Virus record (IMG/VR): IMGVR_UViG_3300013181_000001
Coordinates: 1 to 41,886 of that record
Strand: one strand, 5' to 3'
Length of the DNA stretch: 41,886 nucleotides
From: a virus
The position numbers were made by a program, and so were the translations under genes. The notes beneath the pieces are model-generated. The model did not search any database. It saw only the letters and a list, made by a program, of their open reading frames with translations, and was not told the origin of the DNA. Shown here piece by piece: positions 9,928-36,500 of the stretch. Every line of letters begins with the position of its first letter. Within the stretch, counting starts at the first letter, position 1.

Positions 9928-10676
9928 TAAAATTCACCTTCACTAAACGGGTTCCTATCACTGAAGTCAATAAACTCTAGTGCTTTATCTTGATACATTG
10001 TTGAATCATCTTCCTTATCAACAAGCTTTTTGTCATAGTTGTCGTTAATAATTTCTTGACCTTTTTCATCTGTTATTACTACGCCTGCTTCAGTTGATAG
10101 TTCAGCTGCATCAATAGCATATGCTTGCGAGTAGTCTGCTTCTACACCATCTATCTCAGCAATGCCAGTATCAATTCTTTCATCGCTATAAGAGAACTTC
10201 TCACAAACGATATCATATGTTTGTAAATCGCCTAACTGATAGAATATAGCTTCGTGCTGTACAAACTTAATCTCATATATTCCACCTCGCTCATCTTCTC
10301 CAGCACCTTTAATAAATGGTAACCAAATAAGATCTCCTTCACGAGGTCTTAAAATAGCTTCTGGGTCTAATTCTTCTAAGAATCTTCTTCTTGATACTGT
10401 TAGAGTCATTTGATCTCTTATCTCAAGACCAAACCTAGATAAGAAATCTCCTTCACCTTCAAAACCTTCAACGTTTCTAATATACATTTCTAGCTCGTAA
10501 GCATCATCGAACTTAGAAAGAACATCTTCGCCGAATAGATCGTCTGAATTGACAACTTCTCGAGGCAAGTAATAAGTACTGACACCGTATATTTTGATAG
10601 ACTCTAAAATTAAGTCTTCAATTAAACGTTGCTCTCCTGAAGCCTCGTAGTTTTGAAAGTACGTGTTTAACGCCAT
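9927..10676 (-). CDS. gp14: Neck protein (gp14)
   Basis: This 249-residue head-completion protein (T4 gp14 is about 256) forms part of the neck below the portal with gp13. Family features are seen at the N-terminus (LIEDLILESIKIYGVSTYYLPREVVNSDDLFGED) and in the middle (ILRPREGDLIWLPF). The C-terminal part is acidic and ends with DFSDRNPFSEGEF, a typical gp14 ending. It follows gp13 after 4 bases. Confidence 0.94.
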   Translation of the reverse strand: MALNTYFQNYEASGEQRLIEDLILESIKIYGVSTYYLPREVVNSDDLFGEDVLSKFDDAYELEMYIRNVEGFEGEGDFLSRFGLEIRDQMTLTVSRRRFLEELDPEAILRPREGDLIWLPFIKGAGEDERGGIYEIKFVQHEAIFYQLGDLQTYDIVCEKFSYSDERIDTGIAEIDGVEADYSQAYAIDAAELSTEAGVVITDEKGQEIINDNYDKKLVDKEDDSTMYQDKALEFIDFSDRNPFSEGEF

Positions 10677-10680
10677 TACC

Positions 10681-11427
10681 TTATCCTATCATATCTTCAA
10701 GGGGCAGGCTGTATGATGATAGCATCTCTTCTTCTAATTTTTGAATTTCAGCTAATGCATCATCTTGAATCTTTGCGCCGTTGTAAGTAACTCCTCCTGG
10801 CAACTGCAGTCCTTCAAACTTAGTTAAATTGGAACCCCATTGATATTTAATTTTAGCAGAAGCATAACTTTGCAGCCATCTGTCTTTCCATACATCAGTG
10901 TATGTTTCAGGGTCTACTATCTGATAGCATTCTGCAACGACATATTCGCCTGGTTCTAATTTTTCCCAATCCATATCAAGATATAATCTATTAGTGTGTC
11001 TGTTATATCTGATTGGCTGTCTACCAACTAATAGCTCTTCGATAAAACGAATATGTTGAAAGTTCATATAATAGGTAACAAGCGATTGATTAAATGAAGT
11101 TAAATCATATAAATCATTTAATGCTATCTGATATCTTATATTAAATAAGTTGTTTGTTGATAAGTTACTACCAATATCAAATATTTTAATTGCACCTATA
11201 ATATTGTCTGGTACGGTTATGTATCTATTTGTCTTATCATCAGCTGTAATAACATGCTTATAGAAAGTTTTTTCTGTACCATCAAAATGATAATCCCAAT
11301 AAAAAGACAAAGACTCATCTACACGATCATCAACTTGATCGTCCTCTACATTGATTTCTATAACTGGATATCCTAACTTACGTAGGCACCAATCTTTGAA
11401 TTCTGTTCTTGTAGTAGGCTGAGCCAT
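10681..11427 (-). CDS. gp13: Neck protein (gp13)
   Basis: This 248-residue neck protein joins head and tail together with gp14 (T4 gp13 is about 309, so this is a short form like those of marine T4-like phages). Features visible: TEFKDWCLRKLGYPVIEINVEDDQVDDRVDESLSFYWDYH at the start, a central QHIRFIEELLVGRQPIRYNRH segment, and WKDRWLQSYASAKIKYQWGSNLTKFEGLQLPGG in the C-terminal half. It is the first of the block gp13-gp17 and lies 4 bases after the adhesin block, with no visible promoter of its own. Confidence 0.91.
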   Translation of the reverse strand: MAQPTTRTEFKDWCLRKLGYPVIEINVEDDQVDDRVDESLSFYWDYHFDGTEKTFYKHVITADDKTNRYITVPDNIIGAIKIFDIGSNLSTNNLFNIRYQIALNDLYDLTSFNQSLVTYYMNFQHIRFIEELLVGRQPIRYNRHTNRLYLDMDWEKLEPGEYVVAECYQIVDPETYTDVWKDRWLQSYASAKIKYQWGSNLTKFEGLQLPGGVTYNGAKIQDDALAEIQKLEEEMLSSYSLPLEDMIG

Positions 11428-20301: not shown

Positions 20302-20523
20302 TTAGAAATCCCCGCCGCTATATTCTCCGCCGTCCATTGAAGATACCGCTGCTTGCGCTACAAAAGTATTAGAAGAAGCATCATAAGCTAATACATCGTT
20401 ATTAGCTACAGTACTATAATTAATATTTAGTCCAGAGATACCACTTGCCATTGAAACGGCACCTTGCGTTATCTTTGTTACTACAGGCTGTGATGTTGAT
20501 TTAACAGTTGCTTTAATTGCCAT
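20302..20523 (-). CDS. Small virion-like protein with DGGEY end
   Basis: A 73-residue protein starting MAIKATVKSTSQPVVTKITQGAVSM, with a central LNINYSTVANNDVLAYDASSNTFV and ending MDGGEYSGGDF. It overlaps its upstream neighbour by one base (TAATG) and abuts the GTG of the large fibre gene. The central segment resembles the NDVLxYDxxxxxFV stretches seen in phage fibre ends, so it may be a detached fibre tail. Role unknown. Confidence 0.55.
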   Translation of the reverse strand: MAIKATVKSTSQPVVTKITQGAVSMASGISGLNINYSTVANNDVLAYDASSNTFVAQAAVSSMDGGEYSGGDF

Positions 20524-20855
20524 TATCGTGTAATCTCCGGTGTTACTGTTGCAGTACCTTGAAGAACACGAGTAACAGTTCCTGTGTTACTTGTAACCTC
20601 AACATCATACATATATCTTCCAGGAGGTATTGCAGACGTTACAGTGTTGTTAGCAGATAGAGTAAGCTCACCAGTAGACGCACCAGTGACAGTTGATGTT
20701 AAAGAGTATGAAGTGTTAGAACTCCAGTGCTTTCTTATTTTACATTCAGATGTGTAATTGGATAGGTCAAAGACTTCGCCAGCAGAATTCGTACAAGATA
20801 TCTGTAAGCTTAAATCTGATCCTTGATCAATTACTATATTAGACTTAGTAGCCAT
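20523..20855 (-). CDS. Small Ig-like virion protein
   Basis: A 110-residue beta-rich protein: SNIVIDQGSDLSLQISCTNSAGEVFDLSNYTSECKIRKHWSS, then GELTLSANNTVTSAIPPGRYMYDVEVTSNTGTVTRVLQGTATVTPE. This is the pattern of small receptor- or baseplate-attached domains common in phages (similar to the N-terminal domain of siphophage baseplate proteins, by pattern). A perfect TATAAATA lies 15 bases upstream of its ATG, so it opens a late transcript that runs into the fibre genes. Confidence 0.6.
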   Translation of the reverse strand: MATKSNIVIDQGSDLSLQISCTNSAGEVFDLSNYTSECKIRKHWSSNTSYSLTSTVTGASTGELTLSANNTVTSAIPPGRYMYDVEVTSNTGTVTRVLQGTATVTPEITR

Positions 20856-20906: not shown

Positions 20907-21749
20907 TTATTCTTCTTCTAACTCTTCTTGGACCAGCTTCCACATATCATATTGTGGTATAATAGTAGATAAAGTAATTCTCCAGCTATTTGTACGAGCA
21001 CAATGCCAAGATGCTTTTTCTGCTTCTGAAGGATGTACATTGCCAACATCAAACTGCGGATGGGCTCTACCTTCACCTTCTGGTTGGCCGTGAGTTGAAA
21101 GAAAAGCTCCTGCTCGTGCTATCCATTCTCTGTCTTTATCTTTATATGTTATTATTTCACCTTCATGGTAAGTAATAAACTCACCGTCGCCGCCTAAGCT
21201 ATAATGTAATAATAAGTTATGTCCTGGCGCGTTGCCGTTATTATGCCATGGTATATATCCGCCTGGAGGGTAAATAGCACACAATGCTATAGAAGAACCT
21301 CCAAGAAAGTCATAAGATATTTTTCGTACTATCTCATGCAATTGCTGTTCTTGTGGGAGCTTTATATATTCAGGAACATTTTTTTCAAAGCACATTGCTC
21401 CTGTAAATACTTCTTTATTAGGCCATCCACAGGTGACACCTTCACTAGTAGGACCTTGGTCTTTAAGCCTCTTAATTTGAAGATCAAGATATTCTTGACC
21501 GCAAGGATCCATATAATTACCTAGTTCACGAAAATCATCAGGAAGCATATCCCAATCTGGAGCATGCTTATATGGCTCATCATACCCTTCTTTTTTTCTC
21601 GTTACAGGATCCTGTCTTTTATAATCCCACTCTAATCCTTTATTAATTATATCAGGTCTTTCTTCAATTAAGTACGTAGATCTTTTAGCTAACTCATCTA
21701 GTAACTCTATAAATTCGCTATTTCTTAAATTAAGTTCTTTCATTAACAT
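20907..21749 (-). CDS. 2-oxoglutarate/Fe(II) oxygenase, aspartyl/asparaginyl beta-hydroxylase-like
   Basis: A 280-residue enzyme with a double-stranded beta-helix C-terminal half typical of AspH/prolyl-hydroxylase-like oxygenases, which use Fe(II), O2 and 2-oxoglutarate to hydroxylate peptide side chains. Candidate iron ligands are His169 in IPWHNN and His249 in SWHCARTNSWRITLS; Arg257, eight residues on, would bind 2-oxoglutarate. No acidic residue two positions after His169 (it is Asn), as in AspH, which also lacks the carboxylate ligand. I chose ATG 21749 (AGGA 7 bases upstream) over an in-frame TTG at 21770; a Met at 21743 is also possible. Directly downstream of the glycosyltransferase. 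A target within the neighbouring repeat proteins is inference. Confidence 0.8.
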   Translation of the reverse strand: MLMKELNLRNSEFIELLDELAKRSTYLIEERPDIINKGLEWDYKRQDPVTRKKEGYDEPYKHAPDWDMLPDDFRELGNYMDPCGQEYLDLQIKRLKDQGPTSEGVTCGWPNKEVFTGAMCFEKNVPEYIKLPQEQQLHEIVRKISYDFLGGSSIALCAIYPPGGYIPWHNNGNAPGHNLLLHYSLGGDGEFITYHEGEIITYKDKDREWIARAGAFLSTHGQPEGEGRAHPQFDVGNVHPSEAEKASWHCARTNSWRITLSTIIPQYDMWKLVQEELEEE

Positions 21750-21753
21750 AATA

Positions 21754-22584
21754 TTATCCTGCTCTTTCAATGCCTCCTACTAAGCCATCCTTTGCCTCAT
21801 CCATTGCTGCTCTTGGAATAATTCTATGCTTAATAATTGGGTTAATAGTTTCTTCTTTTAAATTTTTATCGAACATGGCTAGATATTCATTATGGTTCCA
21901 TCTATACTGTTCAAGAGTATTATTTTCTACTTCTTGTATTTTTAACTCAGGCAAGATTTCCATATGAATTTTCCACCATGTAAATTGATCCCAGCCTCTG
22001 TTCATAGGAAAGTATTTTTGATTCTCAGGTAATGCCCACCACTCATCATTTCGATTGATACTTAACCAGTTATCCCACCATAACTCCATTGCTTTAATAG
22101 CATTAGGATGTTTATCATTATGCCACCACAGAAAAAATCCTCCATGATAACGTAAATGTTTTTCAGGATTATTATCTCTTATTTCTTGCTCACCTTCTTC
22201 TCTATAGATAGCGGTTGATGCTCCTGATTCAGGGTATATAACACCAAATGCTGTATCATGATCATCATCTAATAGATCCCACACTTTCTGAATTTCTTCG
22301 TTTTGAACTTCCATATCTGCATCAAGATAGCAAGTCTTTTCAAAGACGGTGTGCCTGAGTGCCCATAATTTAGTTCGTCTTTCATTAGGACAATCAGTTC
22401 TTATTTCAACTACTTGAGGATACATCTCAAACTCTTCTTTAAAGTCTTCATGACAAACTACCATGATTTTACAATCAGGGTAATATTCGTCTAAAGAATC
22501 AATTAAAGCTAGTGCGGATGATTTATAAAAGTGATGACAGGTAGCTACAATTAAAAAGCCTTTATCATGCTTCACTTGCGACAT
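21754..22584 (-). CDS. GT-A-type glycosyltransferase
   Basis: A 276-residue putative sugar transferase. The N-terminal Rossmann-like half begins FLIVATCHHFYKSSALALIDSL and has the pattern RRTKLWALRHTVFEKTCYLDADMEV, where DAD at residues 88-90 is the metal/nucleotide-sugar DxD motif, as in GT8-type and related GT-A enzymes. Downstream YHGGFFLWWHND and MNRGWDQFTWW fit the acceptor/nucleotide pocket. ATG 22584 is preferred (GAGAAAG upstream); ATG 22596 and a TTG at 22608 are alternatives. It overlaps the upstream gene by about 20 bases and lies 4 bases before the oxygenase, so the pair is probably co-expressed. The acceptor is unknown. Confidence 0.78.
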   Translation of the reverse strand: MSQVKHDKGFLIVATCHHFYKSSALALIDSLDEYYPDCKIMVVCHEDFKEEFEMYPQVVEIRTDCPNERRTKLWALRHTVFEKTCYLDADMEVQNEEIQKVWDLLDDDHDTAFGVIYPESGASTAIYREEGEQEIRDNNPEKHLRYHGGFFLWWHNDKHPNAIKAMELWWDNWLSINRNDEWWALPENQKYFPMNRGWDQFTWWKIHMEILPELKIQEVENNTLEQYRWNHNEYLAMFDKNLKEETINPIIKHRIIPRAAMDEAKDGLVGGIERAG

Positions 22585-22996
22585 TTTCTTTCTCATAATG
22601 ATCAACAATCATAGCAGCTGAGTAGGCATGAATCTCAGTGAAGTTTTTAGCCTTACGCAGCTTGCGTTTCAATTTAATATTTTTACTTGATTTGATTTCT
22701 TCAATTTCAAATGCTTGAAGTTTTTCTGTGAATAGAGCTTCTTGAAATCTTCTCTCTTCATTATCTCTTTCAGTAGCTTCTTTTTCTTGCCTTGCAGCTC
22801 TGAACTTAGCAATATCTTCATCAGTTGCTTTATCAATATCTTCTTCTGTATATTGATCCATGAGGATATTCCAAGTTTCTGTATCCTCTCTAGCAATAAG
22901 AATATCACTGCTACCATTTTCAAATTTTTCTCGTGCACGAACACGCTGTTTAGTTTGCGGGTCTTCCCACAAAGGATTCATAAAAGTTCTTGACAT
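22565..22996 (-). CDS. Small charged helical protein, unknown role
   Basis: A 143-residue protein that I do not recognise. It begins MSRTFMNPLWEDPQTKQRVRAREKFENG, then is almost wholly Glu/Lys/Arg-rich helix (ITEEDIDKATDEDIAKFRAARQEKEATERDNEERRF and similar) with a basic KRKLRKAKNF segment near residue 115. It sits directly after the repeat proteins and overlaps the glycosyltransferase. Its position and charge would fit a fibre-assembly chaperone or adaptor, but no motif proves this. A late-promoter box lies upstream. Confidence 0.65.
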   Translation of the reverse strand: MSRTFMNPLWEDPQTKQRVRAREKFENGSSDILIAREDTETWNILMDQYTEEDIDKATDEDIAKFRAARQEKEATERDNEERRFQEALFTEKLQAFEIEEIKSSKNIKLKRKLRKAKNFTEIHAYSAAMIVDHYEKENVASEA

Positions 22997-23033: not shown

Positions 23034-23041
23034 TATTTATG
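23034..23041 (-). promoter_or_regulatory. Late-promoter-like box (CATAAATA) for the modification cassette
   Basis: The minus strand reads CATAAATA, 37 bases before the ATG of the 143-residue protein. The box contains the TAA stop codon of the second repeat protein (codons GCA TAA). It would drive the small helical protein, the glycosyltransferase and the oxygenase as one transcript. Confidence 0.62.
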
Positions 23042-26000
23042 CAACTCTTAACCACAGTTTTTTCGTAGCAACTGTAGTTGAAGTGTTTGTTACTGTATCA
23101 CCAGCATATTCTCTAGTAAATTGTTGAGTGTAGTTAGGACCGGTTGTTTCACGTGTATATTGAACAGTATATTGCGGGCCAGGATTGTCCCTAGTATATA
23201 GAGATGTATATTGAGGTCCTGGATTATCTCTTGTAAACTGTCCGCCTGTATATTGAGGACCGGTATTATTTCTTAAATAGTTTACAGCATAGTTAGGACC
23301 GGTAACATTTCTTGTATACTGCGGTCCAGGATTATCTCTGGTATATTGTGCTGAATATACTCTCTGATATTGACCTTGGAATTCACGAGCAAAAGATCTG
23401 CCGTACTGCACTGTATATTGAGCAGCATAGACTCTTTGATACTGTCCTTGGAATTCACGAGCAAAAGATCTAGCGTAGTTAATTAAATAGTTTGCTGAAT
23501 ATATTCTTGTATATTGCCCAGAGTAAGTTCTAGCAAATGATCTGCCATATTGTACTGTATATTGAGCAGCATATACTCTCTGATATTGAGCTGAGTAAGT
23601 TCTAGCAAATGACCTACCATATTGTACTGTATACTGTCCTTGGAAGAATCGTGTGTACTGTCCTGCAAACTGTCTCGTATAATTAACTGCATAGTTAACA
23701 GAATATACTCTTGTATATTGTCCGCTATAGACTCTTCCAAACGATCTGCTATAGTTTACAGCATAGTTAGCTGAGTACACTCTTGTATATTGACCACTAT
23801 AAACTCTTCCAAATGATCTAGAATAATTAACAGCATAGTTAGCTGAATAAACACGACCATATGAACCATAATATACTCTACCGTAGTTCACAGTATATTG
23901 AGCTGAATAGGTCCGACCATATGAACCATAATATACTCTACCATAGTTTACAGTATAACCGACAGAATATGAACCATAGTATATTCTGCCATAACTACCG
24001 TAGTATACTCTACCATACGATACACCATATGAACCGTAATAAACACGGCCGTATGAGCCGTAATAAACTCTACCATATGATCCGTAATATACTCTACCAT
24101 AGTTTACAGAATATGCTGGACCAGGTCTTGATCTAGCAAAGTTACTACCACCGTAGTTTGGACCAGGTCTAAATCTACCATAGAAGTCAAAGTATTGGAA
24201 GGGGCCGGTATATAATCCGTAATACATTCTACCGTATGATGCGCTCGCGTAATTACCGGAATAAACTCTCCCGTATGATACACCATATGCTGGACCAGGT
24301 CTTGATCTAGCATAGTTAGGACCGGGTCTTGATCTAGCGTATGCAGGACCAGGTCTTGATCTGCCGTAGTTTACTGTATAAGATGGGCCGGGTCTTGATC
24401 TAGCGTATGCTGGACCAGGTCTTGATCTGCCAAAAGACCTATAATACTGAACACCATAAGCTGGACCAGGTCTTGATCTAGCGTATGCAGGGCCGGGTCT
24501 TGATCTAGCATAAGAAACACCATAAGCAGGACCGGGTCTTGATCTAGCATAGTTAGGACCAGGTGTTGATCTAGCGTAGTTAACAGCGTAGTTTACAGCA
24601 TAGTTAGGTCCAGGACGAGCTCTAGTGTATTGAGGTCCTGGTGTCGCTCTTGTATAGTTTACAGCATAGTTAACCGCATAATTAGGACCAGGTCTGGCTC
24701 TAGTATATTGCGGTCCAGGATTAATTCTAGTATATTGAACAGCATAGTTAGGACCACTATATTGCCCGGTATATTGATCTCCAGTTACTGTTCTTGTATA
24801 TTGTACACTATATTGAACGGTATAATTAGGTCCAGGTGTTGCTCTAGCATACTGCGGACCAGGATTGTCCCTAGTATACTGAACTGTATATTGAACAGTA
24901 TAGTTCGGTCCAGGTGTGGCTCTAGTATATTGAGGTCCCGGAGTAGCTCTTGTATAGTTTACAGCGTATTGTACAGAGTATTGAGGTCCACCAACTGTTC
25001 TTGTATATTGAGGACCAGGATTATCTCTAGTATATTGAACTGAATATTGAACAGTATACTGATCACCTGCTACAGTTCTTGTATATTGAGGGCCAGGATT
25101 ATCTCTAGTATATTGTGCTGTGTATACTCTTTGGTATTGTCCTTCATACTCTCTAGTAAAGTTGCTTGCATAGTTAGCAAAATATTCTCTAGTAAAGTTT
25201 CTTGTATACTGCGCTGAATATATTCTACCAAACTGAACAGAATATTGATCTGAATAAACTCTTTGATACTGAACAGTATATTGAGCTGAATAAACTCTAC
25301 CGAAAGTTCCAGTATATTGTGATGTATATGTTGATGAGGATATTGTTGCTCGCGTATCAACAATACTATCACTTACTTGTGTCCATGTACCTGTACCAGG
25401 CGCTGCAGCCTGAAAAACATAAGTACCGACTCCTGTATCTACTATTCTATTTCTTAATCTTGATGTTAGAGTTTCAATTTCAGCATCTGACATTTCTCTA
25501 ATACCAGTTGCCCATTTAACAGGTCTTATAGTAGATGGTGCAGTATCACCTGTCTTTCTATATAAGTTATAGGTTGTGACATCAACACCGTCAGTAAATG
25601 AGTCTGTAAATGTTGATATAGTAGCCCATGTACCTCCAGCTGGAGCAGAAGTACCAACAAAATATTGACCGACTGCATAACTACTTGTGTTAGCAATCTT
25701 ACCCAAAGCTCTGGATATAATAGATGCGTTTAAGTTAGTATCAGTCTGTTCTTTAATGCCAGAATCCCATTCTAGCGGTCTTGTTAAACTTTCTGTTGCT
25801 GTGCCTTGATTTTGGCTAAATGTAGTTGTAATAGTTGATGTTGCGCCATCTGATGGGTGAGTTCCTACTGCATCATCCATATACACATCATCATGTGTTC
25901 CAACTGACGTTGTTCCTGAAATTGAATTATTTGTTGTTAAATCACCAACTAGAGCAGCATGTGTACTATTAGCTTCTGTTGCATATTTAACTAAGATCTT

Positions 26001-26105
26001 GTGAACAGCATAATCCATCTCTGCATCGGTCATTGTTTGTAGACCAGCAAAGTTAGTAGTGTTCGGTTGTCCCGAACTAGTTTTTATTTTTAATGGATTT
26101 GCCAC
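23037..26105 (-). CDS. Giant Tyr/Arg/Gly/Pro repeat adhesin-like protein B
   Basis: A 1022-residue protein starting at GTG (AAGGGGAT upstream). Residues 1-258 are a non-repeated head shared with the neighbour at 26135: DAEMDYAVHKIL, then AEIETLTSRLRNRI, with two copies of a PAGGTW-like module. Residues about 259-1000 are entirely repeats of three words: tetrads Y-x-x-[QN], octads such as YGRVYYGS, and nonads such as YTRDNPGPQ; about two dozen PGP triplets and repeated RSRPGP (residues 519-606) and GRVYYGS (669-748) blocks. The repeat region has no Lys or Cys that I can find; it is very Arg-rich. The end (AGDTVTN, then KKLWLRVA) is a cap conserved in the neighbour. Probably a virion adhesin; not matched to a known family. 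Confidence 0.78.
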   Translation of the reverse strand: MANPLKIKTSSGQPNTTNFAGLQTMTDAEMDYAVHKILVKYATEANSTHAALVGDLTTNNSISGTTSVGTHDDVYMDDAVGTHPSDGATSTITTTFSQNQGTATESLTRPLEWDSGIKEQTDTNLNASIISRALGKIANTSSYAVGQYFVGTSAPAGGTWATISTFTDSFTDGVDVTTYNLYRKTGDTAPSTIRPVKWATGIREMSDAEIETLTSRLRNRIVDTGVGTYVFQAAAPGTGTWTQVSDSIVDTRATISSSTYTSQYTGTFGRVYSAQYTVQYQRVYSDQYSVQFGRIYSAQYTRNFTREYFANYASNFTREYEGQYQRVYTAQYTRDNPGPQYTRTVAGDQYTVQYSVQYTRDNPGPQYTRTVGGPQYSVQYAVNYTRATPGPQYTRATPGPNYTVQYTVQYTRDNPGPQYARATPGPNYTVQYSVQYTRTVTGDQYTGQYSGPNYAVQYTRINPGPQYTRARPGPNYAVNYAVNYTRATPGPQYTRARPGPNYAVNYAVNYARSTPGPNYARSRPGPAYGVSYARSRPGPAYARSRPGPAYGVQYYRSFGRSRPGPAYARSRPGPSYTVNYGRSRPGPAYARSRPGPNYARSRPGPAYGVSYGRVYSGNYASASYGRMYYGLYTGPFQYFDFYGRFRPGPNYGGSNFARSRPGPAYSVNYGRVYYGSYGRVYYGSYGRVYYGSYGVSYGRVYYGSYGRIYYGSYSVGYTVNYGRVYYGSYGRTYSAQYTVNYGRVYYGSYGRVYSANYAVNYSRSFGRVYSGQYTRVYSANYAVNYSRSFGRVYSGQYTRVYSVNYAVNYTRQFAGQYTRFFQGQYTVQYGRSFARTYSAQYQRVYAAQYTVQYGRSFARTYSGQYTRIYSANYLINYARSFAREFQGQYQRVYAAQYTVQYGRSFAREFQGQYQRVYSAQYTRDNPGPQYTRNVTGPNYAVNYLRNNTGPQYTGGQFTRDNPGPQYTSLYTRDNPGPQYTVQYTRETTGPNYTQQFTREYAGDTVTNTSTTVATKKLWLRVA
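23103..25331 (-). repeat. Protein-level repeat array: tetrad/octad/nonad code (protein B)
   Basis: About 740 residues read as a string of words beginning with an aromatic residue: Y[TAS]V[QN] tetrads, octads with R at position 3 and an aromatic at position 5, and PGP nonads. DNA of the words is mostly synonymously diverged, but the RSRPGP stretch (about 24116-24551) reuses AGATCAAGA nearly every time, and a 29-base exact direct repeat occurs at 23854-23882 and 23914-23942, pointing to recent local expansion. Confidence 0.85.
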
Positions 26106-26131
26106 AGGTTCACTATCCCCTTATTTTTATT

Positions 26132-26139
26132 TATTTATG
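26132..26139 (-). promoter_or_regulatory. Late-promoter-like box (CATAAATA) for repeat protein B
   Basis: The minus strand reads CATAAATA about 26 bases before the GTG of protein B, overlapping AATAAATA at 26128-26135. It contains the TAA stop of the preceding repeat protein (GCA TAA), the same arrangement as at 23034-23041. Confidence 0.6.
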
Positions 26140-28660
26140 CAATTCTAATCCATAAGGTATATACTTGAGAGGATAAACTACTAGTTACTGTGTCACCAGC
26201 ATATTGTCCTGTATATTGTCCTGTGATTGTTCTTGCATAAACTCCTTGATATACCCTTGTGTACTGAGCAGAATATGTTCTATCAAACTGAACAGCATAT
26301 TGAGGGCCTGGCGTAGCTCTCGCAAATTGTACATCAAACGATCTTGTATATTGTCTGTTATATTGTCTATCATACTGCACTGTATATTGAGCAGCGTATA
26401 CTCTCTGATACTGTCCTAGATAAGTTCTAGTAAATTGTTCTGAACTTCCTGTCGCATAGTTAGTAGAAAAGACTCTTGTATATTGCGCACTGTAGTTAGC
26501 TGAAAATCTTCTTTCATATTGTACAGCATAGTTAGGTCCAGGATTGTCTCTTGTATAGTTTACAGCATAGTTTACTGAATATCTTCTAGTATAGTTACCG
26601 TCATAATTAGGACCGGGTGTTGATCTTGCATAATTTGGTCCAGTATTAACTCTTGCATACTGAACAGAATATTGAGGACCTGGTCTAACTCTTGCATATT
26701 GAACAGCATAGTTAGGACCGCCTCTCTGTCTTACATATACAGGCTCAGAATATGTCCATCTGCTTCGAGTATATTGTCCGTGATAGTTACCTGCAAATTG
26801 TCTAGCAAAAACAGGTGAAGAATATTGTACAGCATAACTACCTGTATATCTAATTTGTCCTCTTGCATAGTACGGTTGAGTATAGAATGCTTCACTATCA
26901 AAAACACCCGGCTGTCCTCTATAAAAAGTATGGTCTGGATCTCCGAGGAAACCTTCACCACCAGGATTGAAATAAACTAAACCTGCTAAAGGGCTAGGCG
27001 CTGGTGCCATTCTTTCACGTGTAAAGTTTCTACTATATTGAGCTACACCATACTGTGCTGTAAAAATTCTTGTATAGTTACCTTGATATTGAGGTCCAGG
27101 TCTTTGAGCGGCATAAACATCACCCATCGGTTCAAATACACCCTCACCTGAATAGTACCCCATTCTCCAATACCAACCAAAATATGTTCTGCCGTATTGT
27201 GGAGAAGAGAATGTTGACCCTGCCGTTGCTCGGGCATAACCGCCTGCAGCATATGATGGCCCAGGAGCGTTATACGGTGTTGTTCTTTCGTAGGTTCCTG
27301 AATATTCAGTTGCAATAACTACACTGTAATTACCAGAATACACTCTTGCATATGATCTAGAATAATTGCCGCCATACACTCTTGCAAATGATCTAGAATA
27401 ATTTGCTGAATAAACTCTACCATACTGAGCTGAATATATTCTTCCAAACGCTCTAGAATATTGAGGTCCGACTGTATCTCTAGCAAACGCCCTAGAATAA
27501 TTACCAGCATATATTCTTCCAAACGATCTAGAATAGTTAGGTCCAACTGTGTCTCTAGTATAAGCATTGTTAGAGGTGTATTGCGGTCCAGTTCTTTCAC
27601 GGGTATATGGTGTACCACCATAATTAACAGTATATTGAGGGCCGCCTACTTGTCTTGTATATTGAGGCCCAGGATTGTCTCTAGTATACTGAACAGAATA
27701 TTGTGCCCTTGTATACTGAGCTCTTGTATATTGAGCTCTATCATAATTAGTTAAATATTGACTAGAGTATATTCTAGTATATTGAACAGCATATTGAGGG
27801 CCAGGTGTTGCTCTCGCATAGCCTGGACCAGGTGTTTGTCTTGTAAACTGTCCTTGATCTTGTCTAGTAAATTGACCTGTATACTGAGATGATGATATAG
27901 CAGGAAATCTATCCGTTGCTGTGCCTCTTGATACCCAAGTACCACCAGCTGGAGCAGAAGCTCCTTGAGTTAATTTATAAGTGCCAATACCAGTAGCAAT
28001 AATTCTATTTCTAAATCTAGTCTCAAGTGATTTAATCTCAGTATCAGTCATCTCATGAATAGATGATGCACCTGTTAATTTCATTGGACGTACAGTGCTT
28101 GCTGATAAAGTATCAGATGTTTTACGCCATAGATTAAAAGTTACATCATAACCATCATCAGCATTATCATTGGTTACTTCGTCAGTAAAGTTACCTTTTG
28201 ATACCCAAGAACCTGAAATAGAAGGTGTTGAACTACTTAAATAGTATGTTCCTCTTTCAGCAAATGTAGAATTAGCAAGAGCCAATCTACCTAACATATG
28301 ATTAACTATACCGCCATTAATATCTGAGTCAGTAGAAGGTGAAAATGTTGAACCGTTACTGGTTAAGGGTATAGTTAGACTTTCAGAAACACTACCTGTG
28401 TTTTGATTAAATACAGTATTAGATGAAATAATTTCAGGTGAGGAGTGTCCGCCGACAGCTTCATCAGCTTTTTGATCTTGGAATTCACCAATATTAGTTC
28501 CTGTGCCACCTAAAAAGATGTCACCTACTTCATTTGTGCTTCCGGAAAATTCAGACAGTACTAATTGCGCAGCATAATCCATGTCACTACTTGACATAAG
28601 TTGGACGCCATCATTATAAACCCCGTTGGCGTGTTGGCGCATTTTTATGGGATTAGCCAT
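26135..28660 (-). CDS. Giant Tyr/Arg/Gly/Pro repeat adhesin-like protein A
   Basis: An 841-residue paralogue of the neighbour at 23037. I use ATG 28660 (MANPIKMRQ, AAAGGGG about 10 bases upstream), which aligns with MANPLKIK of the paralogue; the in-frame TTG at 28666 is less likely. Residues 1-256 are the shared head (SSSDMDYAAQLVL, then DTEIKSLETRFRNRI, PAGGTW). Residues about 259-820 hold the same word code, but more degenerate, and are interrupted by unique segments near residues 486-518 and 549-603 (GWYWRMGYYSGEGVFEPMGD and PAPSPLAGLVYFNPGGEG). The end AGDTVTS, then YTLWIRIA, matches the paralogue cap. Likely a virion adhesin with a distinct tip. Confidence 0.76.
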   Translation of the reverse strand: MANPIKMRQHANGVYNDGVQLMSSSDMDYAAQLVLSEFSGSTNEVGDIFLGGTGTNIGEFQDQKADEAVGGHSSPEIISSNTVFNQNTGSVSESLTIPLTSNGSTFSPSTDSDINGGIVNHMLGRLALANSTFAERGTYYLSSSTPSISGSWVSKGNFTDEVTNDNADDGYDVTFNLWRKTSDTLSASTVRPMKLTGASSIHEMTDTEIKSLETRFRNRIIATGIGTYKLTQGASAPAGGTWVSRGTATDRFPAISSSQYTGQFTRQDQGQFTRQTPGPGYARATPGPQYAVQYTRIYSSQYLTNYDRAQYTRAQYTRAQYSVQYTRDNPGPQYTRQVGGPQYTVNYGGTPYTRERTGPQYTSNNAYTRDTVGPNYSRSFGRIYAGNYSRAFARDTVGPQYSRAFGRIYSAQYGRVYSANYSRSFARVYGGNYSRSYARVYSGNYSVVIATEYSGTYERTTPYNAPGPSYAAGGYARATAGSTFSSPQYGRTYFGWYWRMGYYSGEGVFEPMGDVYAAQRPGPQYQGNYTRIFTAQYGVAQYSRNFTRERMAPAPSPLAGLVYFNPGGEGFLGDPDHTFYRGQPGVFDSEAFYTQPYYARGQIRYTGSYAVQYSSPVFARQFAGNYHGQYTRSRWTYSEPVYVRQRGGPNYAVQYARVRPGPQYSVQYARVNTGPNYARSTPGPNYDGNYTRRYSVNYAVNYTRDNPGPNYAVQYERRFSANYSAQYTRVFSTNYATGSSEQFTRTYLGQYQRVYAAQYTVQYDRQYNRQYTRSFDVQFARATPGPQYAVQFDRTYSAQYTRVYQGVYARTITGQYTGQYAGDTVTSSLSSQVYTLWIRIA
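26201..27889 (-). repeat. Protein-level repeat array: tetrad/octad/nonad code (protein A)
   Basis: About 560 residues with the same words as in protein B (YTRDNPGPQ-, YSRSFGR- and YAVQ-type), but fewer PGP triplets (about nine) and more substitutions such as VGPN, GGPQ and TGPN. Two unique, non-repeat segments lie in the middle (about 27107-27205 and 26852-27016). No long exact DNA repeats were noticed, in contrast to protein B. Confidence 0.8.
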
Positions 28661-28675
28661 AATCAATCAACCCCT

Positions 28676-31162
28676 TTACGCCGGCCAAGCTATTGTGCCA
28701 TTAGCGTAATATATCCTAAACGGGTTTGTGCCATCAGAAATATCGTCCCTGATTACTACCGTATTTGTTGTTACTGTTCCTGTTGAAATTTGAGTGTTTA
28801 CTGATGAGTTACCAGTTTTTACTGATACAGAATCTGTTAATACTGAATTAGCTCCAGATGCAGATGAACCAACTCTAACCGCTCCACCAGTAATATTAAT
28901 ACCGCCATTAGCTGTTATTGTACCTGAAATGTCAGCTGTTGTACTAGAAAGTGCCCACCTCTTAGCATTGCTACCTAACGCAACACCATTTGCACTAGGA
29001 ATAAATCCTACTGTTGAGTTACCAACAGGTGCGTATACTATTAAACTATCTGTGCCTAAGTTATCACCAATAACTGTATTACCATTTAAATTGGCTTGAG
29101 CAGATACTGATAACGATGTCATTGTAGCAACGTTTAGAGATAAAACCTGATCAGTCGCTAAAGATGTATCACCATCAACTGTTAAATTACCTCTAATAAC
29201 TACATTATTAGAAAACTCTGTATTAGGAGCAGCGAGCATTTGAGTATCAGTAATATATAATTCACCAGATACTAAGTTAGCTGATCCTTCTACTACAATT
29301 GTATTTGCAATTGTTGTCGCACCATCAACTTGTAAGGTATCACCGACGTTAGCAGTATCTAATGTTGTATGACCTGCTACATCTAATGTAGTACCAAATT
29401 GACCGGATGTGGTTGCATTTACAAATCCAGTTACTGTAGTATTACCAGCTGCTAGTGTTGTGCCTACTGATGCAGAAGTTGATACATTAATAAATCCAGT
29501 TACTGTAGTATTACCAGCAGCAAGAGTTTTACTTAATGTTGTAGCGCCAGATACCGCAAGCGTGTTGCTTAATGTAGCGGCGCCTGTAACAGCAATTGTA
29601 TTAGATAAAGTAGCTGCTCTAGTTACTGCTAGCTGTCCTGCAATCGTTGCGTTGTTACCGATATTTAATTTTTTAGCAGCTCTAATACCGCCTGCTGTCT
29701 TAATTGACGCATGAGTAGCGTTAGCATCAGTTGTTGATAATACTTCTGTATTACCTGAAATAGTAGCAACATTACCGAGTGTAGCTGCACCAGTTACATT
29801 TATTGTATTTGATAATGTAGCTGCGCCAGTTACTGCAATAGTATTCGATAATGTAGCTGCACCTGTAATAGCCATTGTATTACTAAATGTGCCAGCTCCA
29901 GTAACAGCCATAGTATTACCAAATGTGCCTGCGCCTGTAATATCAATTGTATTAGCACCAGTAATTGCACCAGTAATGTCAGCTTTTTTAGTTACCTGAA
30001 TACCACCAGCTGTTTCAATTGAACCAGCAGTACTATTTGCATCTGTTGTTGATGCTACAGTAACATTACCTGTTACATAAGCGCTCTTGCCGGTAAGTAA
30101 TCCACCAGCAGTATGTACAGCTGCATTAGTTGAATTTGCTTCTTGAGTAGATTGTACATAAACATTACCAGTAATATACCCGCTCTTACCTACTCTAATA
30201 CCGCCGTCAATATCAACAGAGGCAACAGTTGAGTTAGCCTCTTGAGTACTATCGAAATACGCGTTTCCTGTAACGGTAAGCGTGTTACTTGCATTAATAG
30301 TGTTACTATTAAGGTTCCATCTAGCATCTGTTAGACCCATTGTCAGGGCGTTTGACACAGGATTTACATTAGTATCTACCTCTGCCAGGACAGACATTGT
30401 ATCATCATTCGCACTACCAACTGTTACGTTAGCATTGAAATATGATTCATCTGAATCTACTGTTAAGCTGTTACCATCTATAGTAATTGATGTTGTTGAA
30501 CCGTCGTTATTTAAGTCAATTGCTGTAATAGTTGAATTGGCTTTGATGGTCCAATCATTAGCTGTCATTGTATAGTTGTCAGCTAATTCTGTATAATTGG
30601 TTGTGTTAACACTAATAGTTGAATTATTAGTTTGTAGCAATGTTCCATTAATATAGAAACTTGTTGCATTAGATGTTACGTTTGAAGATAGAGAGTTAAT
30701 CTCTACATTAGAACTAACTTTTAAATTTGTACCAGTAACATATGCGTTAGCTGGATTAACATTAATACCTGTACCTGTTACAAATACATGCTGGTTTGAA
30801 CCGTTAGCTGTACTTGAAATAGATAGGTGCAGATTATTATTAGCGTCACTAAAATTAGTATTAGAAATTACTTCTAAGTTAGCGCTATTCTCTACCTCAC
30901 CACCTCTAATGCTTGTATATACGGCTACGACATTAGATTGTAAAATACCACCTGTTGAATTTTCATAAGCAAGATTGTCATAGTTCCAAACATTAGAAGT
31001 TATAACAACGTTACCAGACGTTGCTGCGCCGATTGTGTTTTGCTGAGAGGTGACAACTGTCTCACTGAGATCAAAAACTAACTGATTAGTTCTCTCAACC
31101 CAAGAACCAAACGTATCTGTTTGGTATAAAATATTGGCACTTCTATATTTGGGATCAGCCAT
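28676..31162 (-). CDS. Tail fibre protein with tandem AxTLSNTxxVTG repeats
   Basis: An 828-residue fibre. N-terminal residues 1-60 include FGSWVERTNQLVFDLSETVVTSQQNTIG, a pattern common at the head of marine phage fibres. A long Asn/Thr/Val region follows, then EANSTxASxxxxGGIxxxK modules (four or more, about residues 300-400 and near 490), then about eight 12-residue repeats of the AATLSNTIAVTG type and the LAAGNTTVTGFxN motif also present at 15305-16318. A later part has FIPSANGVALGSNAKRWALSSTTADI, a typical tail-fibre beta module. It ends FRIYYANGTIAWPA, similar to the 11432-13555 gene. Start overlaps the previous stop (TAATG). Confidence 0.75.
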   Translation of the reverse strand: MADPKYRSANILYQTDTFGSWVERTNQLVFDLSETVVTSQQNTIGAATSGNVVITSNVWNYDNLAYENSTGGILQSNVVAVYTSIRGGEVENSANLEVISNTNFSDANNNLHLSISSTANGSNQHVFVTGTGINVNPANAYVTGTNLKVSSNVEINSLSSNVTSNATSFYINGTLLQTNNSTISVNTTNYTELADNYTMTANDWTIKANSTITAIDLNNDGSTTSITIDGNSLTVDSDESYFNANVTVGSANDDTMSVLAEVDTNVNPVSNALTMGLTDARWNLNSNTINASNTLTVTGNAYFDSTQEANSTVASVDIDGGIRVGKSGYITGNVYVQSTQEANSTNAAVHTAGGLLTGKSAYVTGNVTVASTTDANSTAGSIETAGGIQVTKKADITGAITGANTIDITGAGTFGNTMAVTGAGTFSNTMAITGAATLSNTIAVTGAATLSNTINVTGAATLGNVATISGNTEVLSTTDANATHASIKTAGGIRAAKKLNIGNNATIAGQLAVTRAATLSNTIAVTGAATLSNTLAVSGATTLSKTLAAGNTTVTGFINVSTSASVGTTLAAGNTTVTGFVNATTSGQFGTTLDVAGHTTLDTANVGDTLQVDGATTIANTIVVEGSANLVSGELYITDTQMLAAPNTEFSNNVVIRGNLTVDGDTSLATDQVLSLNVATMTSLSVSAQANLNGNTVIGDNLGTDSLIVYAPVGNSTVGFIPSANGVALGSNAKRWALSSTTADISGTITANGGINITGGAVRVGSSASGANSVLTDSVSVKTGNSSVNTQISTGTVTTNTVVIRDDISDGTNPFRIYYANGTIAWPA

Positions 31163-31418: not shown

Positions 31419-33527
31419 TTATCCTGAAAGAGCAATAGCTCTTATATCTGCTAATCTCGGTACAACGTTTGTTTGATCTGCTAGCATTACTACTTTAATC
31501 TGGAATGAAGATAAATCGTTAAATTCTGATCCTTCTGAATTAAAGTATACTAATCTATAACCGCCGTCCGAGCCTCCTAATGGGTATCTAAATGCTGATC
31601 TTACTTCATCAGCAGCTACTTTGAAAATATTTCCACTTGTAAAATCTTTTCCTGCTTCAAGAGGGTTAGCTAATATTAGCGTAGCACTAGAAACGCTCGC
31701 TACTCTACCCATAGCATAATCTTCTCTTAAGCCATCTGCTTGTTTAACTATAACAATATCACCAGCAGCAAAGTTCGACGCTACACCTGCACTACTACAA
31801 ACAACATTTGACTGGCTAGCAACAGTGCTAGCTGTTCCACTAATTTGTGTTGTAGAATCACAAGTTGGGCTTTGAGGTAAATTATAAACTAACTCTTTAA
31901 AGTCACGTCCACTTACTACTGAACTTTTAACAGCTTTCTGAGTATCAGTTTCAGTTAATAGTGTCCACTGCCTCTTAGTTGGTGAATCAGGATCAGCAGC
32001 TGCTCCAATACGTGCATAAACTTGGAAGTCAGTACTAATTGCTTGACCTGTTGCTCCCTCTGGTGTTCCAGGCTTATATCCTGTTAAGTAAACATTTAAG
32101 TCATCTGCGTCCATACCAGGAGCAAGATTAACAATACGTGATGTATATTTTGTATTAGCGCTACCAATTTGATATGATTTTTCATTTAATGTATTAGCAC
32201 TAATAATGTTTGTGTAATTCTGGAATGTACTTAAACCTTTCCTTGCATCAAATACCGGAGTAACAGCAGGGTTAGTTGTCTTTAAAGTATGAACTACTGA
32301 TAATGATTTTTGAATACCAGTTGTATTAGCTTCATTTGACTTACTAAAGATAGCAGCTTCAAACTGTCTAATACTATTATCAGCACCGTAAATAATTCTT
32401 TTTGTAGCGGTGTTTGCAATATCCGTAGACTTTCTATAAGTAAGATGACTTTCAATAAATGTAGCACCTACAGTTGTCTTATAAAAATGAGGTTTAAAGT
32501 AGCTCAATATTTTATTATCTACTGTATCAATTGTTGCTGTTGCACCTGATAAGCACCCTCTAATACTGTCACCAGCTTCAAATCTATGGCTTGTATTTGC
32601 AGCAGTAGAGTTTTTCAATCTAATTATTTCACCGGCTTGCTCTATCTCGTCTACACTCCCACATGGAGTAAATGCAACATTACCGTCTGAGATACCGATT
32701 TGAGGAGCTCCATCAATTGTCATAGATGTTGCACTTTCAATTGTAGCAATTTTTACAACATCTGATATTGCATTATTACCAGAGCTTCTGACTACAACAG
32801 TCTGTCCAGCCGCAAAAGATGAATCAAAGGCAGTCCCTACACCTGTTACTGTACTGTTTCCAGCAACCAATGTTACTGTACCATTTGAAAATGCGCTAGG
32901 AACTTTATAAACTTCTTCGTTAGTTTGCCAAACTCCAGCACCACCTGTTAGAGTTAAAAATTCATAGTCTCTGTTTACTTGAGTAATATTACCTACAGCT
33001 GATGTTGCAAAGTTAGATCTAAAAACATCAAATTTTAGATCTCTATCTAACTTCGGCAACCATGCACCTGATGCAGAAGCAAAGAACGCTCCGTCGCCCC
33101 AGTTTTCATTAATAGTAGTATTATACTGTACGTCTTGTCTTCCATTAATAGCCATCCAAATTTGTAGAGTAGGATATGCACCATCTGGCTTAACTGCAAT
33201 AGCATAAGTTTCGCCAACTTTAAGATATACAGCACCAGGGAAAATAACTCTTGTTGGTACAGACGCGTCAGATGATGTACCAATATGTTCTGGTTCTAAA
33301 TGAACTCTAGAATCAGGCAAAACAGTTCTTGTCGGAACACCGTTCTCACAGGCTCTAATATCAACTGTACATCCTAAAAACGGGTCTTTAGATTCAAAAT
33401 ATAAGTTTATTGAAGATAAAAACATGCCGTCAGCGTCAGGCGCCATAGTTGGCAACACTTTAAACGTTTGTGCTATAGGATCGTAACTTAAAGCACTTTT
33501 AATTGGATCTTTTGAGTTAATTGTCAT
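31419..33527 (-). CDS. Structural protein with DPxAQTF motif, partner of DUF4815-type protein
   Basis: A 702-residue virion protein. Residues about 12-190 hold YDPIAQTFKVLP, LSSINLYFESKDPFLGCTVDIRACENGVPTRTVLPDSRV and VIFPGAVYLKVGETYAIAVKPDG, a module that in many marine T4-like phages lies in the C-terminal part of the large DUF4815-type structural protein. Here it is encoded by a separate gene. The middle has FEAGDSIRGCLSGATATIDTV, the SGATA repeat also seen in gp8 and the baseplate gene at 40484. The end GGYRLVYFNSEGSEFNDLSSFQIKVVMLADQTNVVPRLADIRAIALSG fits a phage-virion end. Follows the 1450-residue gene after 14 bases. Confidence 0.68.
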   Translation of the reverse strand: MTINSKDPIKSALSYDPIAQTFKVLPTMAPDADGMFLSSINLYFESKDPFLGCTVDIRACENGVPTRTVLPDSRVHLEPEHIGTSSDASVPTRVIFPGAVYLKVGETYAIAVKPDGAYPTLQIWMAINGRQDVQYNTTINENWGDGAFFASASGAWLPKLDRDLKFDVFRSNFATSAVGNITQVNRDYEFLTLTGGAGVWQTNEEVYKVPSAFSNGTVTLVAGNSTVTGVGTAFDSSFAAGQTVVVRSSGNNAISDVVKIATIESATSMTIDGAPQIGISDGNVAFTPCGSVDEIEQAGEIIRLKNSTAANTSHRFEAGDSIRGCLSGATATIDTVDNKILSYFKPHFYKTTVGATFIESHLTYRKSTDIANTATKRIIYGADNSIRQFEAAIFSKSNEANTTGIQKSLSVVHTLKTTNPAVTPVFDARKGLSTFQNYTNIISANTLNEKSYQIGSANTKYTSRIVNLAPGMDADDLNVYLTGYKPGTPEGATGQAISTDFQVYARIGAAADPDSPTKRQWTLLTETDTQKAVKSSVVSGRDFKELVYNLPQSPTCDSTTQISGTASTVASQSNVVCSSAGVASNFAAGDIVIVKQADGLREDYAMGRVASVSSATLILANPLEAGKDFTSGNIFKVAADEVRSAFRYPLGGSDGGYRLVYFNSEGSEFNDLSSFQIKVVMLADQTNVVPRLADIRAIALSG

Positions 33528-33541
33528 AATTTGTCTTTACC

Positions 33542-36500
33542 TTACTTTAAATTTAAGTCCCACCACCAGGTGTCTTCCCAACCATAATAGTATCCGTCTT
33601 GAGGATTATATGAGCTTCCACCAGAACCAGTTATTGCTGTATTAGCTTGTGAACCATCTCCACCTGAAGTAGCTGTATTAGACTGATTACCATATGACGT
33701 ATGTACATCGTCACAGAAGTCGCCGTAACCATATGGGTAGTATAAGTTACCATATTCATCAGTTGTTGTATATTGAACTTGACCATTTGAGTTATAGTAA
33801 ACTGTGCCAGGTACATAAGTGTCAATATAGTTAATACAATCTATCTCTGTGCTTGTCTCAGTTGAAGTTTGAGTTGTTGATTCTGACCAAGGATCACCAT
33901 ATATTGTATTTAGGTCGAATGTAGGATTAATAGTTGTAATTGAAACTTCTTGCTTACTTACTGAGAAGTTATAAGCGTTGTAAACAACCTCACCCATTGA
34001 AGAAGCTTCTGCTAAGTTCTCAATGCTTGATTCGTCACAAACAACTAATTTTCTATCACCAACTAAGAATGTATCTTCTGGTAAGTCAAAGATTGCAAAA
34101 AGCTTTCCTCTACTATCTGTTGAGAGAGGATCTGCATAACCAAGTATAGGTACACAAAAAGGTGCTAGCCCGCAACCAATTGCAATATTACCGTCAGTAA
34201 ATTGTTTTCCAACTTTACCTGGCTTAATATACTGATTAATATCTTTCTTATCAAAGTAGAAATAGTGTCTTGTTAAAGGTCTAAAGCCCCATCCAAATAT
34301 TTTAACTCTTCTGGCTCTCATAAATGGTGAGAAGGAAACATCTTTAACAAAATCACCTAAGTGCTCAGTATTAGTTTGAGTACCAGTAGATAGCTGTTGC
34401 GATACTTCTTGATAAGTGTTTGTTGTTACTGTTGTAGTGACATCAGTAGTTGTAGTTGTTGTTTCTACTGTACCGTAGTCCCCACCGTAATAGTATCCAG
34501 GATAATATCCCCAACCATGGAAGCCACCATTATAGTGTCCCCAATAGCCGTCTCCATATCCGTAATACTCGTGATGATACCAGTCATGTCCCCAACCATA
34601 ATAACCTTCGTTTGTTACTTCAGTATCGGAAGTTGAAGTAGATACAGTATTAGATGTTGTTGACGATCCAATGTTATTTACATTAGTCATCGTTGTAGAA
34701 TAAATGTTATTAATATTATCTACAAGCTCTTGTACACCTACAGTATTATCGTTAACTACGTTTTTAGCAGGCAACCTGTTTGTATCGGTTGTACCATCAT
34801 AAGGAGGATCTAATTCAAGCTTACCATTAAACTTGTAGTAATTTTCAGTACAAGGTATAGCTGTTGTTGCTCCTCTTTGACCAATAACTTGTGTCTCGAT
34901 AGCAGGCATTACATATACGCCTCTACCTGAGGTTTGTGGATTTGTTACATTTAATACACTTGATGTGCTTTGTACTTCTAAGTCAGTCCAGTACTGATCA
35001 AACTGAGGAATAAATTCTCCAGAGACAGCATCAATACCCATTCTATGCTCACCAGACTTTAGATCAGCAATATCAAAGTTAAGAGCAGGGTCTACTAAAA
35101 TACCGTTTTTAAATCTATCAAGACCATTCTCATCTGTAACAACCATACTTTCTGTCTTCTGCTCAAGCAATGACAGAGAAGTATAATATTCCATATTCTT
35201 AAGACGCTTATCAATACCACCAATGTCTTTCATAGTATAACGTCTAGTGTTAATTGGTGTTATACTAATAGCGTTATTTTTTCTAACTTTATCTCTAGCT
35301 TCTTTTGAAGAAAGAGAAGGATAAGGTGGTACATAAACCTCAGCTACTACTAATCCGTTATCTGGATCAGTCGGAGGTACTGGTCTACTCGCTGGTACAC
35401 CAGGCTTGCTTGAAATAATACCCTGTTCAGAAACATAAACTTTATCAATTCTTCCTAGATAAAATTCAATATCTGAATTAAATTGTTCGTTTGGTGCAGC
35501 TAAGAATAATGTCTGATTAGGAAACGCTTCAGTAGCAGACGGGTTAACTGGTGATCCAACACCACCATCAGCATGAAGACCTGCTCCTGTAGCAGTTGCT
35601 GCAACCATTGGTCTACAGTCAAGTACGTTTCTTAAGTCAATAGAAAATCCTGACTGCTTACTATTATAAACTGGAATATCAGATGGATCAATAGCTGTTA
35701 CACCATCTGAATCAACATAACTGTCAACAGTATAGTAACCTGAACCACTTGCAGGAGTGGCTGTTTCAAAATGTTTAACTTTAATAAAAAGCTGCTGGTC
35801 TGCAGTCATTGAGAAAGACCCTTTAGCTTGAAGCGTTGAGAGTCCATAGAAGTTATCTTTTTGACCAGTCTCTAAAATCATTTGCGAAGTTACTTTATTA
35901 GAAGCATAAATTGTTTCAGTATTATTAGATGTATTCGCATATGATGGAGTTGCACCTGCTGGTACAAGATATACATCTTCAATCTCAACTACATCAGGCA
36001 GTCCTAATGACCAAGGACCTGAAGTGCCTTGAGGGTGAGTATTAGCTCTAATTTGTACCCAAGCGGTCTTTCTTGTCTTTTTAAGAGCAGCTGCGTTTGA
36101 TTTTTTACAGTTATGGATAATATCATACGACATTGCCGCTGTGTTAGATCCAGTAATGCCGCCAATATTAAATGTTACATTATTACCTGATACAGTTGCA
36201 GTGACGCTATCCATATCTAAAGGTACGCCTTCTGTTATATTAGCATTAGTATCAGTTGAATTAGGTACAATTAAAAAGTTACGCTTTTGATCTAGTGATA
36301 ATGTACCAGAGTAAGGTAACTCAAATTGAGGAGATAAAATAAGATTGTCTGTAGTTGCGTTAACTGACTTAGAATCTCTAAAAACAAAGTCACTATCACT
36401 TAAAGCTTTAATCCCGAGCTTACCAAGCGGGAATATATTCATTGAGTTATTAATTTCTCTAACTTTAGAACCGAATACATCAGCGTGAGCTTGTCCTGTT

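Follow-up and report, generated by a model that had tools for sequence, protein, structure and literature searches.

What do two adjacent phage genes build when most of each protein consists of short words that begin with an aromatic residue? The window, by which we mean the whole stretch of 41,886 nucleotides analysed here, carries two such genes on its minus strand, one for a repeat protein that we call P_A and one for its paralogue P_B (Table 1). The best explanation, and one that we hold to be highly probable on the evidence of the sequences, is that a T4-like marine myovirus uses P_A and P_B for host recognition, each protein being predicted to form a hairpin stalk with a tip and to be modified by the products of a cassette of neighbouring genes.

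Genome context and distribution

The window comes from a T4-like myovirus. Genes for the portal, protease, scaffold, tube, sheath and terminase, together with gp13-, gp14- and gp15-like genes, lie on one side of the array genes, and the baseplate wedge and phrog_358 (the VrlC position) lie on the other. The array genes thereby sit between phrog_358 (31419-37894) and the gp13/gp14 region (Hc2/Ad2, 9927-11427). According to PMC7029224, this place in pelagimyophage genomes is named the host recognition cluster, and the cluster of pelagimyophages and cyanomyophages shares with the window both the position between VrlC and the neck genes and a content of tail fibres and glycosyltransferases. P_B is listed with a TTG start, and an ATG two codons after it fits the MANP with which homologues begin. 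Immediately ahead of the repeat proteins lies a gene (28676-31162) that is itself repetitive, with TGAATLSNT and VGNSTVNS words, and the genes preceding the repeat protein in the window, L002 and L008 end in a common tail motif (..YxANGTxxWPA or ..SNGSQLYP).

Table 1. Array genes, their parts and the neighbouring cassette genes, in window positions
Feature	Positions	Strand	Basis or remark
phrog_1084 / L-shaped tail fibre assembly-like protein, gene after cassette	20523..20855	minus	
2-oxoglutarate-oxygenase-like enzyme, 287 aa, WHNN..H..R	20907..21770	minus	model, fold match, invariant residues
Glycosyltransferase, GT-A type, DxD in YLDADM	21754..22608	minus	weak Pfam/glycogenin matches; invariant D96/D98
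Small conserved cassette protein, 143 aa, no known family	22565..22996	minus	present in every cassette
P_A, 1022-aa repeat protein, GTG start	23037..26105	minus	open frame; homologues with same N- and C-terminus
P_A N-terminal domain, residues 1-255, three tandem related modules	25341..26105	minus	AlphaFold pLDDT ~93; profile comparison
P_A array, residues 260-1000	23106-25328	minus	
P_A arm 1, residues 260-615	24261..25328	minus	word parse, slot map
P_A midpoint segment, putative tip, residues 616-645, YGRMYYGLYTGPFQYFDFYGRF	24171..24260	minus	relative position 0.506
P_A arm 2, residues 646-1000	23106..24170	minus	mirror of arm 1
P_A C-terminal strand, residues 1008-1022, ..ATKKLWLRVA	23040..23084	minus	pLDDT ~90; profile alignment, shuffle control
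P_B, 843-aa paralogue, listed TTG start	26135..28666	minus	open frame
P_B tetrad array, residues 262-822	26201..27883	minus	
P_B non-repetitive midpoint segment, ~residues 555-590	26897..27004	minus	relative position 0.54-0.56

Although the cassette is common in metagenomic phages, a search of 50,697 deposited phage records with the N-terminal domain of P_A returned one match, a 3347-aa hypothetical protein of Phage C48C1 (OQ984149, Kyanoviridae) whose N-terminal domain is 29.6% identical over 98%. The oxygenase search of the phage records returned C48C1 again, plus one uncultured phage over 35% of the length. The C48C1 protein, a homologue without annotated function, shares the N-terminal domain, the C-terminus and the cassette with P_A and differs from it in its arrays, which are made of YVGN and YTRTRxSx words and hold several inserted domains. 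Several array insertions in this protein (L001:5551-15591) are non-repeat, and one is partly tandem-duplicated (KTRHRSYLYYSTDTSTNQQFFEPRVDD twice). The structural protein of Synechococcus phage S-RIM2 (L021:7417-13155) has GNVTGNLTGNVTG period-4 repeats with V or L where the aromatic residue stands; it was rejected as a homologue, being built of VTGN-type repeats without the N-terminal domain, and is at most a looser analogue. The comparisons below draw on about 90 homologues, many of them related by descent, so that counts taken over them overstate their independence. No earlier description of the repeat or of the cassette was found in the open-access literature.

The arrays are made of three aromatic words

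A sequence-only reading of this locus had proposed that both arrays split nearly end to end into tetrads, octads and nonads beginning with Tyr or sometimes Phe, and our data show that these three words are real. They cover 80.5% of the P_A array, compared with a maximum of 19% in 500 shuffles and 25% when the aromatic positions were fixed, and 50.5% of the P_B array, for which the shuffle maxima were 17% (free) and 23% (aromatics fixed). "Nearly end to end" is apt for P_A and generous for P_B. A base period of four residues is borne out by the excess of aromatic pairs at lag 4 (113 seen against 35 expected in P_A, 62 against 21 in P_B), and the nonad is, as proposed, a tetrad plus five residues, with the PGP kink supplying the fifth. 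The mapped arrays agree with the span of 23103-27889 first assigned to them, and the absence of Lys and Cys claimed for the array of the larger protein extends to that of P_B, Cys being absent from the whole of both proteins. Rich in Y, R, G, S and Q, the arrays matched no known family in Pfam, PHROG or PDB sequences, as that reading had also held.

No two copies of a repeated peptide word in the tabulation for P_A and P_B are encoded by identical DNA, a sign that selection on the protein, and not very recent copying, maintains the words. Codon agreement among the repeated words of P_A is slightly above random choice (634 against 556 positions). Three divergent homologues (L071:4161-6470, L098:2296-6570 and L076:1-825) have five- or six-residue Tyr words of the YTGPxx type instead of tetrads and retain the N-terminal domain, the C-terminal strand and the cassette.

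Both ends of the array are predicted to meet in one domain

AlphaFold is confident about P_A only at residues 1-258 and 1008-1020. Profile comparison found modules 1, 2 and 3 of the N-terminal domain to be mutually related, and the C-termini of homologues read L-W-x-R-x-A, a strand that matches the final strand of module 2 (YNLYRKT, LWRKT) in the profile alignment. The profile score of module 2 against module 3 plus the C-terminus is 108.2, compared with 97.7 against module 3 alone and with a maximum of 98.5 when the C-terminus was replaced by 40 column shuffles. These scores place the array as a loop between the two final strands of module 3, the LWLRVA strand completing the module, and a chain inserted in this way must run out and return. 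The length of the array ranges from 41 to about 3,000 residues among homologues. AlphaFold leaves the arms unfolded (pLDDT ~30, no secondary structure and no helices predicted), so that its model lends no support to the arm pairing described below. When the P_A model was compared with known structures (Foldseek/VIA), the best matches were T4 gp11 (E 1.9; Z 2.6) and MPEG-1 (Z 3.5), both below a useful level.

The two arms mirror and complement each other

In arm 1 of P_A, tetrads and octads stand by the base and PGP nonads farther out (repeating 9+9+4+4), while arm 2 has octads and tetrads by the tip and PGP nonads by the base; in the slot map, the first 19 slots of arm 1 hold tetrads, followed by nonads, and arm 2 runs from nonads by the base to tetrads. 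More generally, stretches of PGP nonads or Arg octads in one arm lie opposite aromatic tetrads of the other. Nonad faces nonad in 9 slots of seven P_A-like proteins, against 46 expected, and in L025 tetrads and nonads alternate in five blocks. A second kind of complementarity is seen in L039, which has two-residue kinks at 20, 42, 64, 86, 108, 130 and 152 residues from the N-side base and at 25, 47, 69, 91, 113, 135 and 157 residues from the C-side base, a constant offset of 5. The types of these kinks run K K T T K K K on one side and T T K K T T T on the other, a K-type always facing a TS-type, and in five proteins all 15 of the facing kinks are of opposite type.

The same relation appears in the mirrored aromatic density of the two arms, for which the correlation reaches -0.93, -0.87, -0.84 and -0.80, with -0.68 for P_A and -0.41 for P_B. 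In the mirror register the correlation is negative in most of 18 long proteins, and it is much weaker in the translated register. New arrays gave a negative mirror correlation in 12 of 14 (median -0.39, compared with -0.05 for the translated control; Wilcoxon p 0.003). A parallel, translated register between the arms was rejected, the control correlations being near zero. The mirror signal is absent in C48C1, L061, L071, L098, L132 and L150, several of which carry extra inserted domains; those with several inserted domains (C48C1, L061 and L150) were scored with a simple midpoint split.

Insertions and deletions between close relatives come in mirrored pairs. L135 and L136, otherwise 98% identical, differ by 60 residues at 263 from one base and by 60 residues at 273 from the other, and further mirrored indels match in length at 28/28, 24/24, 20/20, 40/40, 44/44, 32/32 and 36/36. 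Between L024 and L188, two 27-residue nonad units in arm 1 correspond to two 24-residue tetrad units at the mirrored places in arm 2. In a count that took in contig fragments, 16 of 42 indels were matched (random placement gave a mean of 1.0 and a maximum of 8 in 2000), and among complete proteins with two GTW motifs, after merging of adjacent gaps, 16 of 17 were, under tolerances that we set ourselves and that differ between the two counts. Within repeats a gap can be located only to within a few tens of residues, and the exceptions are the L144/L148 pair and one L086/L162 indel, which are unpaired. The paired segments of L135 differ in sequence type, YTRARSSAYAGN in arm 1 and RNFIGEYAGNYA in arm 2. 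By analogy, paired indels of this kind would be the protein counterpart of compensatory changes in an RNA helix.

A variable segment at the midpoint

An automatic score placed the most irregular segment at 0.45-0.55 of the array in 23 of 38 non-redundant arrays (63 to 1,481 residues), and in a later set 12 of 21 new arrays had it there, with about 2 expected. A common tip motif, e.g. YILYYAGVVYG, lies at 0.47-0.49 in 12 proteins. The automatic score failed on P_A, for which the irregular segment was located from the slot map. Across 27 pairs of relatives, the two central deciles are the least conserved (identity 0.61 and 0.62), compared with 0.70-0.81 in the other deciles and 0.87 in the N-terminal domain, and in long proteins the central drop is steep (0.38/0.46 for L095/L101 against about 0.9). 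Such variability at the midpoint is the pattern that would be expected of a host-facing tip, for which receptor binding is a putative role. L028 (5480-6733) has two copies of the tip motif YQRFFAGFSGGFFTG, which lie at relative positions 0.30 and 0.66 of the array and so almost evenly to either side of its midpoint.

Other readings of the array

The sequence-only reading had likened the arrays to the low-complexity domain of FUS, that is, to disordered, multivalent aromatic and Arg domains that self-associate as a condensate or glue. A composition rich in Y, R, G, S and Q and the lack of an AlphaFold structure for the arms would suit such domains. Disorder, however, predicts no fixed midpoint, and the equal arms, mirrored kinks, complementary words and paired indels require an ordered, in-register and position-specific partner for each stretch, which leaves that reading without support and in our view very unlikely. 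The symmetry could also be historical, a relic of repeat duplication or gene conversion with no structural meaning, since tandem DNA repeats do exist. We consider this extremely improbable, because the arms are complementary and not copies, the tabulated words of P_A and P_B never share identical DNA, and the paired indels of L135 are of different sequence type, so that duplication does not explain them. A conventional linear trimeric shaft, a beta-helix like those of gp5 or gp37 with a tip at mid-position by chance, is brought to mind by the place of the gene among tail-fibre genes and by octads that recall the VxGxxxxx of T4 gp5 (PMC4576200). Such a shaft does not predict mirrored indels, and with the C-terminus a strand of the N-terminal domain, as the sequence comparison shows, both ends must meet; we give it only a slim chance of being correct.

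In the hairpin stalk that we propose, the partner of an arm may belong to the same chain or to a neighbour in an oligomer.

A four-gene cassette with two enzymes

The gene of P_A comes first in a cassette and is followed by those for the 143-aa protein, the glycosyltransferase and the 287-aa oxygenase-like enzyme. C48C1 has this set of four in unchanged order, as do the P_A-fetched viral contigs that reach far enough downstream. Among loci fetched with the N-terminal domain, all three partners are present in 55 of the 55 with enough downstream sequence, and among 80 loci fetched with the oxygenase, every locus with at least 5 kb upstream has the other three genes; the loci without partners have little upstream DNA or, in L033 and L034, hold a replication-region paralogue. 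These tallies count loci, many of them related, and not independent events.

The glycosyltransferase has a DxD motif, whose D96 and D98 are invariant in 8 sequences, and its matches to families are weak (Pfam GT2 and Nucleotid_trans below cut-off, glycogenin at E ~0.4). The oxygenase-like enzyme has no Pfam match and is modelled at pLDDT 91 as a double-stranded beta-helix, whose best structural matches are prolyl hydroxylases (PHD2 3oui, Z 10.2, rmsd 3.5 over 151 residues); AspH also ranks high in the Foldseek output. Invariant in 44 sequences are H176, N178, H256 and R264, the last of which stands 8 residues past H256, and we infer that it is the distal Arg for 2-oxoglutarate. The double-stranded beta-helix fold, the two His and the distal Arg are thus shared with PHD2, P4H, viral vCPH and AspH, whereas the metal triad HxD/E...H is replaced by HxN (H176, N178) plus H256, and we call the enzyme oxygenase-like because the carboxylate is the one element missing. 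AspH likewise lacks a metal-binding carboxylate.

Pro is not common to the arrays, and a simple prolyl hydroxylase of the PGP words was rejected as a general rule since many arrays are almost free of Pro. Tyr may be the universal target of modification, though Phe replaces it freely (one array has 3% Tyr and 26% Phe).

Several observations concern relatives of this enzyme. Paralogues with no glycosyltransferase or repeat protein alongside lie in the C48C1 replication region, adjoining a NifU-like gene (L106:10131-10805), and beside a peroxiredoxin-like gene (L033:2633-3289 and L034:4065-4721). The protein of the window has an insertion at about residues 226-245, ahead of the second metal His; it is missing from the seven homologues first aligned. 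The one close oxygenase match among genome contigs is encoded by L102, which belongs to a metagenome bin of Rhodobacteraceae, and is 43% identical to the protein of the window; L102 may be a phage contig, and it is too weak a basis for naming a host.

The two enzymes follow the gene of the repeat protein so strictly that they most likely modify that protein. They might instead act on host lipopolysaccharide or another target, with their adjacency reflecting only a shared host-recognition module. The excerpted text of PMC7029224 takes the cluster glycosyltransferases as modifiers of host lipopolysaccharide, interpreting pelagimyophage GT8 enzymes as O-chain modifiers, and does not describe the repeat architecture or the strict four-gene cassette. 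A host target would also be in keeping with the oxygenase paralogue of the replication region. Against it stand the constant order of the four genes in every testable locus fetched with the N-terminal domain and the complete cassette in all oxygenase-fetched loci with enough upstream DNA, and we judge a host target unlikely, while according it real weight.

Discussion

Taken together, the data suggest a stalk whose base would be the three-module N-terminal domain, closed by the C-terminal strand and seated on the baseplate or a fibre. From there the array would fold back into two antiparallel arms, the aromatic-rich tetrad stretch of one packing on the PGP nonad or Arg-octad stretch of the other, and the tip at the far end would bind a host receptor. 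With less certainty, the oxygenase-like enzyme may hydroxylate and the glycosyltransferase glycosylate the repeat protein, and the 143-aa protein may assist assembly. As a matter of arithmetic only, arms of fully extended beta strands (~0.33 nm per residue) would give P_A a stalk of about 120 nm, and a wound form would be much shorter.

The architecture of such a stalk is likely to be new and its probable role in host recognition ordinary. If correct, it would mean that a phage fibre can be built in a new way, as a stalk of tunable length from one folded-back chain, with a readable pairing code between the arms that makes length, register and tip exchange directly testable. Some of what counts as "unknown structural protein" in uncultured T4-like phages of marine and fresh waters would be explained as well, and the glycosyltransferases and hydroxylases of host-recognition modules would gain a concrete candidate target.

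Comparison with known systems

The T4 gp5 spike is made of three intertwined chains with VxGxxxxx octads (PMC4576200). Like gp5 and other interdigitated phage beta-helices, the arrays have octads and hydrophobic residues at fixed spacing; unlike them, they carry an aromatic residue every 4 residues and would return the chain to its start. Val makes up 7% of the array, the word profiles contain no VxG octad, and the autocorrelation is that of aromatics at lag 4.

In SMC, Rad50 and MukB proteins and in the dynein stalk, the termini lie at one end, two equal antiparallel arms run side by side, and a functional domain sits at the far end. At the level of sequence, P_A is predicted to resemble this architecture in its joined termini, equal arms and mid-chain tip; the fold-back arm of SMC is described in PMC5526789. 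The hairpin protein has no sequence relation to the SMC/Rad50 group and no ATPase, and the arms of SMC, Rad50, MukB and dynein are alpha-helical heptad coiled coils, whereas those of P_A, with PGP and Gly-rich tetrads and no predicted helices, are Gly/Thr/Pro-rich aromatic tetrads in two complementary word types. That such proteins are the single-chain analogue of a nucleic-acid hairpin, with complementary words, compensatory indels, a hypervariable receptor-binding tip and a hydroxylase and glycosyltransferase of their own, is a proposition for which we see the chances as evenly balanced.
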